Source: Psychromonas sp. 14N.309.X.WAT.B.A12
GTDB taxonomy: Bacteria; Pseudomonadota; Gammaproteobacteria; Enterobacterales; Psychromonadaceae
Length of the DNA: 64,000 nucleotides
Direction: 5' to 3'
Assembly: GCF_030397575.1 (NCBI RefSeq)
Contig: NZ_JAPNXS010000014.1
Coordinates: forward strand, 1 to 64,000
Shown: piece by piece, positions 31,553-34,194 of the stretch
Numbering within the stretch: the first letter of the stretch is position 1
Layout: every line of letters starts with the position of its first letter
Position numbers and translations under genes: made by a program
Notes under the pieces: generated by a model
The model's input: the letters and a program-made list of their open reading frames with translations, nothing else
Databases searched by the model: none
What the model was told of the DNA's origin: nothing

Positions 31553-32467
31553 ATGAAAAAAACACTATTAGCAACAGCAATTTTGGCGGGTCTTGTTTCT
31601 GCAACGGCTCAATCTGCAACTGTATATGATCAAGACGGTACTACACTTAAAATTGGTGGTCGTGCTGAAGTACGTGCTGAGTTTAAAGATACTGGTGATG
31701 GTTCTGTTGAAGATAAAAGCCGTGCTCGCATTAACTTTGGCGGCAAAACTCAAATTACTGACAACCTAACAGGTTTTGGTTTCATGGAATACCAAATCGA
31801 ACCTGGTGAAACAGTTGATAACCGTTACTTATTTGCTGGCTTTGGTACATCAATTGGTGATTTCTCTTACGGTCGCCAAGATACTGCTAACGTACAAGTT
31901 TCTGATATGACAGATATTGCTTCTGTTCATTCAGGTTACCAACAAGTATTTGATGCTTCATCTGATAAAGAAAACACAACTTTCTTATATTCAGGTACAT
32001 TTGCTGATTCAGTAACAGTGCAAGCTAACTTCACAGGTTCTGATGAAGATGATCAAGATTCTGTTGCTATCTCTGCCCTTTACTCTAGTGACTTCGGTTT
32101 AGACCTAGGTATCGCACATACAGATGCACAAACAGATGAAACACAAACAACTATCGCAGCAGCTTACTCTGTAGGTGATTTCTATGGTGCTGCTTCATAC
32201 GCAACGGGTGATGCATTTAATGAGGCAGATGAAATTTCTGATATGACGTCAATCGAAATTGCACTGCAATACAAGTTTACTAAGCAATTCCGTATGATTG
32301 GTATTATTGCTCAACAAGAGATTGATGATGTAGATACTGCTGATTTCTATGCAGTTGAAGGTCAGTACCGTTTCAACAAATTAATCCGTACATACGTAAC
32401 TTACCAATTTAACCAAATTGATGATGCAGAAGATTCTTTAGTAGCGGGTATCCGTTACAACTTCTAA
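31553..32467 (+). CDS. Gram-negative outer-membrane porin
   Basis: The 304-residue precursor has a signal peptide (MKKTLLATAILAGLVSATAQSA, cleavage near 21-22). The mature part alternates polar and hydrophobic residues as beta strands, rich in Asp, Gly and aromatic residues, and ends in YNF with a C-terminal Phe, the outer-membrane assembly signal. The start (TVYDQDGTTLKIGGRAEVRAEF) resembles general trimeric porins of the OmpC/OmpU group, though it is shorter than the usual 330-370 residues. Specificity cannot be read from the sequence. It is a single-gene unit with its own terminator. Confidence 0.88.
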   Translation: MKKTLLATAILAGLVSATAQSATVYDQDGTTLKIGGRAEVRAEFKDTGDGSVEDKSRARINFGGKTQITDNLTGFGFMEYQIEPGETVDNRYLFAGFGTSIGDFSYGRQDTANVQVSDMTDIASVHSGYQQVFDASSDKENTTFLYSGTFADSVTVQANFTGSDEDDQDSVAISALYSSDFGLDLGIAHTDAQTDETQTTIAAAYSVGDFYGAASYATGDAFNEADEISDMTSIEIALQYKFTKQFRMIGIIAQQEIDDVDTADFYAVEGQYRFNKLIRTYVTYQFNQIDDAEDSLVAGIRYNF

Positions 32468-32492
32468 TCAACTAATAAGTTAGATTTAAAAT

Positions 32493-32521
32493 AAAATCCC
32501 GGGCATTGCCTGGGATTTTTT
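32493..32521 (+). terminator. Rho-independent terminator of the porin gene
   Basis: AAAATCCCGGGC pairs with GCCTGGGATTTT (one G-T pair) around an ATT loop, followed by TT; 25 bases after the porin stop. Confidence 0.87.
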
Positions 32522-32635
32522 GTTTGTACTGCTCACCTTTTAGCAGTTATTCAACAGCTCCCACCCGCTAATAGTTGTATTTTTATACCATTAACCAATT
32601 TAGAATAATAAATATCTTACCGTATGTTTTTATCT

Positions 32636-32646
32636 TGTGAGAGATC
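32636..32646 (+). promoter_or_regulatory. Candidate GacA/UvrY/VarA half-site upstream of the CsrB-like RNA
   Basis: TGTGAGAGATC matches the left part of the 18-bp inverted repeat bound by UvrY-type response regulators upstream of csrB genes. It lies about 170-190 bases upstream of the presumed RNA start, a distance similar to that in E. coli. The right half is degenerate (CTAAGAG nearby), so this is tentative. Confidence 0.4.
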
Positions 32647-32820
32647 GACCATTGCTAAGAGAGGTTATTGCATTATTTAAAACAAGTTTAATACTCTTTT
32701 AATCAATAAATATTATACTAAGTCATTGTTATTAAGTTGTTTGTTGTTTTTTTGTTCTGTGATGCAATATAAAATTTCTTCTCTTATGCCATTATTATTT
32801 AGAAAAAGGTCGTATTCTTT

Positions 32821-33209
32821 GTCTCGCAAAGGGGAAACGCTTTACAGGATGTAAACAATGACTCGATGCATTGCTAGGATGGCAATTAGGACCTCTCAGG
32901 ATGAGAGTTTATAAAACAGGATGTTTTATAATTAGGGAAAGCAGGACACTTCAGGATGAAGTTATTAGTGACTACTAGGATTGTGGTTATTAAGCCAGGA
33001 TGGCAAAGAAGGACACCTCCTAAGGAAAGGGAGATGACGGGTAAACAGGATGTTTATCTCATAAGGATGTAACAAGGAACGAGCCCAAAGGATTTGGGAA
33101 GTGGACGCCTAGTATGGCATTAGTCAAAGGGATGTAACGCAGGGAGCATCAACTATCATGGATCAGATAGATTAGACTAAAATAAGGGCAGCTTCGGCTG
33201 CCCTTTCCT
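32821..33209 (+). ncRNA. csrB: CsrB-like regulatory RNA sequestering CsrA
   Basis: The region has no coding potential but contains more than twenty GGA motifs, many as CAGGATG or AGGAT. At least six are presented in the loop of a perfect hairpin: 32841-32855, 32893-32907, 32909-32931, 32948-32962, 32994-33004 and 33042-33056, each with AGGAT as the five-base loop. The segment AGGACACTTCAGGATGAAGT is nearly identical to part of E. coli csrB. It ends in a strong terminator. CsrB RNAs bind many CsrA dimers and so relieve CsrA-mediated translational control. The 5' end is approximate (about 32805-32825); a TATTCT at 32813-32818 may be the -10. Confidence 0.9.
33184..33209 (+). terminator. Terminator of the CsrB-like RNA
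   Basis: AAGGGCAGC and GCTGCCCTT arms close a TTCG tetraloop, followed by TCCTATTT. It defines the 3' end of the RNA at about 33205-33209. Confidence 0.88.
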
Positions 33210-33279
33210 ATTTCTGCAATATTAAAAAATACTTATCTGAATAAACTTCAATTATAAATACTGTCCCATACTTCTATTA

Positions 33280-34194
33280 TTAGCCTTGTAATTGATGCTT
33301 TAAGCTCTCTTCTAATAAATCATATTGAAAAGTAAACCCTGCATCTAATAGTTTAGTTGGTCGAACATTGGTACTTGAAAGCAATAACGCTTCGCCCATT
33401 TCAGCAAACAGTAATTTAACCATAAGTGCAGGTAAAGGTAAGATACAAGGTCGGTTTAAAATATTGGCTAATATCACTGAAAAGTTTCGGTTAGTGACCG
33501 GATGAGGAGAAACTAAGTTAACTGGGCCTGATAATTCCACATTACGCATAATAAATAAAATAGCATTAACCTGATCGGTTAAGTCTATCCAACTCATTAT
33601 TTGTTCACCTTTACCGATTTTACCGCCAACACCCATTTTAAAAGCAGGCAACATTTTAGCTAATGCTCCCTCTTGTTTGTTTAATACAATTCCTGTTCGT
33701 AAGTTAACGACTCTAGTGCTATTAGTCTTTACTCGGTGGCTAGTTTGTTCCCATTGAGCCGCTAATTGGCTTACAAATTCATCACCTTGTGGTGAACCTT
33801 CATCGACTGGTTGCTGACCACTATTCCCATAAAAGCCAATGGCGGAAGCGCAAATGAACAGACTCGGAGGCGTATCGCTGTTATTAATAAAATCAACGAT
33901 GAGTTGTGTTGACTGGATACGACTATCAGTTATTTTCTGTTTTACTTTTTCAGTCCAACGTCGATTAGCGATGTTTTCACCTGCTAAATGAATAATGATG
34001 TCCGGTTGAGGTGCTGAATTGAGGTGTATTTGCTGTTGGTCGATCAACCAATAAGGTTCCGTGTCGCTTACGGTTCGTTGCAAAGTATAGACTTGATAAC
34101 CCTGAGAAGTTAATAAAGGGGTCAAAGCGCGACCAACTAAACCTGATGCACCAGTGATCAATACTTTTTGTTTTGTTTCAGCTTGTTGAGTCAT
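33280..34194 (-). CDS. TIGR01777-type NAD(P)-dependent epimerase-like protein (YfcH family)
   Basis: The protein has 304 residues and belongs to the extended short-chain dehydrogenase superfamily. The dinucleotide-binding motif GASGLVGRAL is at about 15-24. The stretch IIHLAGENIANRRWTEKVKQKI near 66-87 and CASAIGFYGNSG near 115-126 are signatures of the YfcH/TIGR01777 group, which has no firmly assigned reaction. The C-terminal part carries the DUF1731-like end (LLDAGFTFQYDLLEESL). It is convergent with the CsrB-like RNA and divergent from pabA. Confidence 0.88.
   Translation of the reverse strand: MTQQAETKQKVLITGASGLVGRALTPLLTSQGYQVYTLQRTVSDTEPYWLIDQQQIHLNSAPQPDIIIHLAGENIANRRWTEKVKQKITDSRIQSTQLIVDFINNSDTPPSLFICASAIGFYGNSGQQPVDEGSPQGDEFVSQLAAQWEQTSHRVKTNSTRVVNLRTGIVLNKQEGALAKMLPAFKMGVGGKIGKGEQIMSWIDLTDQVNAILFIMRNVELSGPVNLVSPHPVTNRNFSVILANILNRPCILPLPALMVKLLFAEMGEALLLSSTNVRPTKLLDAGFTFQYDLLEESLKHQLQG

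Follow-up and report, generated by a model that had tools for sequence, protein, structure and literature searches.

A predicted csrB gene in Psychromonas, its upstream UvrY-type site and the genes of the Csr circuit

The forward-strand sequence from 32825 to 33209 of the window, which is the whole 64,000-nucleotide stretch of Psychromonas sp. 14N.309.X.WAT.B.A12 DNA that was analysed, is in all likelihood (probability about 95%) a csrB gene, the transcription of which would be switched by UvrY and the RNA of which would titrate CsrA. Judged from its sequence, it is a fresh member of a known RNA family, preceded by the usual type of control site and accompanied in the genome by genes for the partner proteins. 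Direct observations are the family match, the anatomy of the tract, the conservation of the upstream box and the occurrence of partner genes in the genome. New in detail are a conserved helix that is predicted to close the 3' end of the RNA and csrB members that are missed by the Rfam model. The elements discussed below are all on the plus strand of the window:

32636..32653, plus strand: box TGTGAGAGATCGACCATT of the UvrY type, where phosphorylated UvrY may bind, by likeness to published sites
32719..32731, plus strand: weak IHF-like sequence TAAGTCATTGTTA, matching the pattern TAANNNNTTG at 32719
32813..32818, plus strand: predicted -10 element TATTCT, with the start of transcription estimated near 32825
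32825..33209, plus strand: predicted csrB RNA gene of about 385 nt, from the RF00018 match and 23 GGA; the 5' end is a prediction
32841..33098, plus strand: region of seven AGGAT-loop hairpins with five-base loops and stems of 5-9 pairs
32841-32855, 32870-32886, 32893-32907 and 32909-32931, plus strand: AGGAT-loop hairpins 1-4
32948-32962, 33039-33059 and 33084-33098, plus strand: AGGAT-loop hairpins 5-7
33120..33180, plus strand: conserved 3' module from RNAalifold, with a TTAGTC...GACTAA closing helix around AAGGGATG, GC-AGGGA-GC and a CTATC/GATAG hairpin
33184..33209, plus strand: predicted intrinsic terminator, AAGGGCAGC-TTCG-GCTGCCCTT (hairpin 33184-33205) followed by a T-rich tail

Anatomy and family membership of the GGA-rich tract

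A preliminary description of this DNA had placed an RNA with the architecture of CsrA-titrating RNAs in a gene-free gap of 812 bases 3' of a porin gene. This gap was recovered between the porin stop at 32467 and the end of a convergent yfcH-like gene at 33280, with the GGA-rich tract between the two genes on the plus strand, and the architecture is supported by the RF00018 match, the GGA density, the AGGAN hairpins and the terminator. The claimed number of more than 20 GGA motifs was confirmed by a count of 23 in 32821-33209, together with 15 AGGA and 10 AGGAT, while 2000 dinucleotide-preserving shuffles reached at most 20, 13 and 6, respectively. When both strands of the window were scanned in 389-base stretches at steps of 20, this stretch had the densest GGA on either strand (23 vs a mean of about 2.5), and the best stretch of the minus strand contained nine. 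Hairpins with an AGGAN loop and a stem of at least 4 pairs occur seven times, compared to a mean of 0.05 and a maximum of 1 in 60 shuffles; their repeated occurrence had been described correctly, but their number had been given as six. An additional GCC-AGGAT-GGC hairpin at 32994-33004 has 3 pairs only. The stretch has a fold energy of -113.4 kcal/mol, lower than that of any of 100 shuffles (z = -4.1). At the end of the tract, the GC-rich terminator expected from the preliminary description was found as a terminator-like hairpin at 33184-33205. A phage origin was rejected, as none of 50,697 phage records matched 32600-33230 by blastn.

The covariance-model search that had been proposed as a check was passed narrowly: Rfam CsrB (RF00018) matches 32852-33215 on the plus strand with 71.8 bits (E 3.8e-17), 0.8 bit above the gathering score of 71 bits. 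The match spans model positions 1-356 of 356 and was the only one when the whole window was compared to Rfam 15 by cmscan with gathering thresholds. Because this margin is thin, independent evidence was sought. Features that characterize the family are many GGA motifs, several of them in hairpin loops, and an upstream UvrY/GacA-type site; the tract has 23 GGA and seven hairpins, and the upstream site is present by its sequence. The RNA of E. coli K-12 (RF00018) is similar in length (369 vs about 385 nt) and GGA number (22 vs 23), in its AGGA hairpin loops and its terminator, and in an identical stretch of 19 bases, GGACACTTCAGGATGAAGT, at 32944-32962, which is the longest identity between the two. 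A segment of 20 bases had been described as almost the same as in E. coli csrB; the segment was confirmed, but the exact identity extends over 19 bases. The neighbours differ, since E. coli csrB lies between syd and yqcC and the csrB of the window between the porin and yfcH genes.

Several observations count against identification as csrB: the 0.8 bit margin for RF00018, a second copy that scores below the cut-off, a -10 element (TATTCT) that is not listed by a consensus scan, a box without the right half of the inverted repeat of E. coli, and a CsrD-like protein below its cut-off.

Putative upstream control region and partner proteins

In E. coli csrB, the UvrY site TGTGAGAGATCTCTTACA is centred at -183/-182, and the SirA site of Salmonella csrC is given as TGTGAGACATTGACCATT (PMC4682653, Zere et al.). 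The first 11 bases of the window box are identical to the E. coli site, and the box differs in two positions from the Salmonella csrC site, to which the boxes of two other Psychromonas genomes (G003 and G012) are identical. For csrC of Salmonella and E. coli, the comparison covered this upstream SirA site (PMC4682653). Of the 18-base inverted repeat of E. coli csrB, the Psychromonas box has the left half alone. Its position is similar, as both organisms have a UvrY-type box about 180-190 bases upstream: from the first base of the box it is 177 bases to the predicted -10 element here and 191 bases to the annotated start of the RNA in E. coli.

The 20-mer TGTGAGAGATCGACCATTGC was found with up to 4 mismatches in 33 of 34 csrB copies, while shuffled upstream stretches (20 per copy) never came below 6 mismatches; the exception, L051, has 8 mismatches in 20 positions and lacks a good box. 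When 2 mismatches were allowed, the 18-mer TGTRAGASATYGACCATT matched twice in this genome, both times exactly and once before each csrB, but the reversed pattern gave 3 matches, more than the 2 true ones. Across 24 Psychromonas genomes the exact pattern occurred 28 times, spread over 16 genomes, and its reversed control not at all. Twenty-seven of the 28 exact boxes begin 452-768 bases upstream of a same-strand match to R1, our genus model of the 3' module of csrB, and the remaining one (in G014) precedes a divergent GGA-rich tract. By sequence, all exact boxes seen thus stand in front of a csrB or a csrB-like tract. The converse fails because eight of the 24 genomes have no exact box.

The sequence TAAGTCATTGTTA has one mismatch to what we take to be the IHF consensus. 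A putative IHF site is described at the corresponding place in E. coli csrB (Zere et al., PMC4682653). The tract is intergenic and ends in a terminator, and its promoter is proposed from conservation: a sigma-70 consensus scan of 32450-33300 returned two promoter-like sites, compared to a mean of 3.3 in shuffles, and the predicted -10 element was not among the two. The corresponding hexamer is TATTAT in L040, the closest relative, as it is in many further copies. A -10 pattern written by eye matched 24 of the 34 copies, at a distance from the box of 173-177 bases in 22 and of 160-162 in two.

The suggestion of a Gac/Var-Csr circuit in this organism was borne out at the level of genes, as CsrA, UvrY and BarA are all encoded, each above its NCBIfam cut-off, and a CsrD-like protein is encoded that scores below its own. 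CsrA (118.4 bits, cut-off 73) is encoded by one gene in the genome, and the protein has 60 residues from the start ATG, including L4 and R44, which are described as critical for RNA binding (review PMC7652899). BarA (1211.5 bits, cut-off 890) has sCache_4, HAMP, HisKA, HATPase, receiver and Hpt domains. UvrY (398.4 bits, cut-off 280) is complete with 214 residues, the stop inside the match being its own terminal stop, and has an Asp at position 54. A CsrD orthologue is not universal in BarA-UvrY-Csr circuits. The best NCBIfam family of a GAPES4-GGDEF-EAL protein of this genome is CsrD, with 526.4 bits under a cut-off of 663:

L118 301-2226 (G000:C23): CsrD-like GAPES4-GGDEF-EAL protein

On reading its sequence, the GGDEF and EAL motifs look degenerate. 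According to the review, the distribution of CsrD orthologues appears to be restricted to Enterobacteriaceae, Shewanellaceae and Vibrionaceae (PMC7652899). Since Psychromonas is outside these families, a CsrD in this genus would, if confirmed, widen the range given there.

From these elements we infer how csrB may be transcribed, activated, bound by CsrA and degraded. UvrY phosphorylated through BarA-UvrY signalling would bind the box, at its upstream distance of 177 bases from the -10 element, and turn transcription on, probably helped by IHF between box and promoter, and transcription would end at the GC-rich hairpin. The resulting CsrB RNA of about 385 nt, with some 23 GGA, of which seven or more are presented in hairpin loops, would bind many CsrA dimers, so that CsrA would leave its mRNA targets. 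Decay may be started near the 3' module by the CsrD-like protein together with RNase E.

The 3' module and csrB copies across the genus

For the 3' end, 28 distinct modules drawn from 34 tracts were aligned. According to RNAalifold, an AGTC/GACT helix encloses GGATG, a GC-AGGGA-GC mini-hairpin and a CTATC/GATAG hairpin, and the terminator comes after it. In the three helices of the module (outer pair added), all lettered cells are paired and one of 12 pairs shows a two-sided change; in the whole 3' structure two of 21 pairs do so, a number that 6 of 500 shuffles reach. The model points to a conserved structure, for which the covariation support is thin. Folds of two sequences from other families of the order, L005 and L006, can be read as having a similar closure. 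The 3' end of E. coli CsrB folds without a closing helix of the TTAGTC/GACTAA type, in contrast to Psychromonas csrB, a comparison made on single folds of 125-base pieces. Because the RNase E site of E. coli CsrB is described to lie in unstructured sequence that directly precedes the terminator (review PMC7652899), the closing helix might alter the decay of CsrB.

The genus was sampled with 24 Psychromonas genomes, this one and 23 others; loci L117 and L125 were left out of the analysis. A pattern scan returned 34 stretches, 26 of which are titled Psychromonas; the other eight have 3-14 GGA around the match and in no case the genus terminator, and were taken as chance matches. Rfam CsrB matches at E ≤0.001, in rows obtained under stricter filters, occur in 19 of the 24, and R1, built from the 28 distinct genus sequences, finds the 3' module in all 24. 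Only five genomes (G001, G005, G006, G018 and G021) are an independent test of R1, because the other 19 supplied its sequences or carry identical ones, and these five are also the five without an Rfam match. Among them, the csrB 3' module of L124 (G006:C1:4428800-4430300) obtained 89.5 bits with R1 and no Rfam match at E ≤0.01; by sequence, it is a member missed by the Rfam model. The other 33 csrB copies have 2-12 AGGAN hairpins each, with shuffle means of at most 0.28.

This genome contains a second csrB on contig C3 (38554-38933, minus strand), which has 30 GGA over about 400 bases and, with 50.3 bits, lies below the Rfam cut-off. It shares neighbours with the copies in L035 and L050. A 220-residue protein without a Pfam match is encoded beside it (L032 4782-5444) and has 84% identical counterparts beside csrB in the same two loci. 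With a further copy in the genome and an RF00018 score close to the cut-off, the tract in the window could be regarded as a decayed, functionless csrB. We consider this extremely unlikely and rejected it: compared to L040, the spacer has diverged but the box, the -10 region and the RNA body are nearly identical, with all seven hairpins kept in the RNA body; the R1 score of 115.5 bits about equals the 115.3 bits of the second copy, the next match in the genome having an E of 0.024; and box and terminator are intact.

Beyond typical csrB genes, the upstream box serves as a search handle, as it led to the divergent GGA-rich tract in G014 (L122 449-744; G014:C68, minus strand). Within 500 bases, this tract has 27 GGA, and it has a hairpin with T residues behind it; it matches Rfam CsrB with 22.4 bits (E 0.0024), far under the cut-off, and was not listed by R1. 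Standing behind an exact UvrY-type box, it possibly represents a further type of csrB-like RNA. Short csrB-like remnants with R1 scores of 32.1 and 33.9 bits were seen in G021, at about 330-450 of L123 (G021:C107:45647-45735), directly behind a porin gene and before a full csrB, and in G006 (G006:C1:4429242-4429330), respectively. In a genome from another family of the order, five CsrB matches follow one another on one strand (G032:C1:4533806-4536939).

By description, the sibling copies resemble csrB1-4 of Vibrio, which arose by duplication and generally number two to three, with four in V. tasmaniensis LGP32 (PMC6262261). Csr RNAs are also described for another cold-living marine gammaproteobacterium, Pseudoalteromonas fuliginea, to which Psychromonas csrB is likewise compared by description: Pf1, Pf2 and Pf3 have 25, 21 and 9 GGA motifs, Pf2 and Pf3 bind CsrA, and for Pf1 and Pf2 no homologues are reported outside Pseudoalteromonas (PMC11882849).

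Genomic address and biological meaning

In a neighbourhood survey of 20 regions from 18 genomes, csrB adjoins mnmE in 15 of the 18 genomes, 14 by these regions and the present one by the window, which makes the neighbourhood of mnmE a conserved address within the genus; of the remaining three, G007 and G012 were sampled at another address and the contig of G020 begins just before csrB. The yfcH and porin genes were named by profile, whereas the names of mnmE, mioC, mnmG, the antiporter and other neighbours are our assumption from recognition of the proteins. Vibrio csrB genes lie at different addresses (PMC6262261), in contrast to this address beside mnmE with its often tandem copies: two or three GGA tracts stand beside mnmE in nine of the 14 regions (L033, L036, L037, L038, L042, L044, L046, L047 and L048), with an antiporter gene between the two tracts of L048.

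A porin gene lies between csrB and mnmE in nine of the 14 regions, and yfcH beyond in nine. As the tract follows a porin gene of the same orientation, and a short csrB-like remnant is found directly behind a porin gene in G021, the tract might be read as part of the porin mRNA, forming a 3' untranslated tail that binds CsrA, rather than as a separate RNA. This is very unlikely and was rejected, since a terminator-like hairpin at 32493-32519 belongs to the porin itself, the box and the -10 region sit between porin and tract, and csrB occurs without a porin match in five of the 14 mnmE-side regions (L037, L039, L044, L046 and L049).

The preliminary description had also noted a position of the csrB gene near the origin, and this agrees with a cluster of DnaA boxes about 32 kb away: the window contains 13 TTWTNCACA boxes, five of which fall at 843-1029, in an A+T-rich gap that is flanked by genes presumed to be mioC and mnmG. 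By its sequence, this gap is likely oriC. An origin next to dnaA was rejected, as there is a single DnaA box there vs the five at 843-1029. Proximity to the likely origin, the conserved place beside mnmE and the tandem tracts would fit a functional role of the address, by which replication-linked csrB dosage would raise CsrB in fast growth, in addition to the action of csrB as a UvrY-switched titrator of CsrA. We consider such a role unlikely, since csrB may owe its address merely to common inheritance with a conserved housekeeping cluster and the second csrB copy lies on another contig.

Taken jointly, the peculiarities of the genus allow a tentative and on the whole doubtful picture. High-affinity UvrY sites in Psychromonas may have been reduced to those of csrB genes, in which case BarA-UvrY would act almost wholly via CsrB; with a closing helix that is absent from E. 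coli CsrB, the 3' region may decay by other rules; tandem copies on the origin side may set the dose of CsrB; and the divergent RNAs behind the same box, far under the Rfam cut-off, may form a further CsrA-titrating set.

In a literature search from which subscription journals were mostly outside, we found no account of csrB in Psychromonas, and the present analysis adds a predicted csrB gene together with the whole encoded circuit for this genus. Exact boxes were found in the genus only in front of csrB-type genes, which would make Psychromonas well suited for a clean test of whether BarA-UvrY acts mainly via CsrB.
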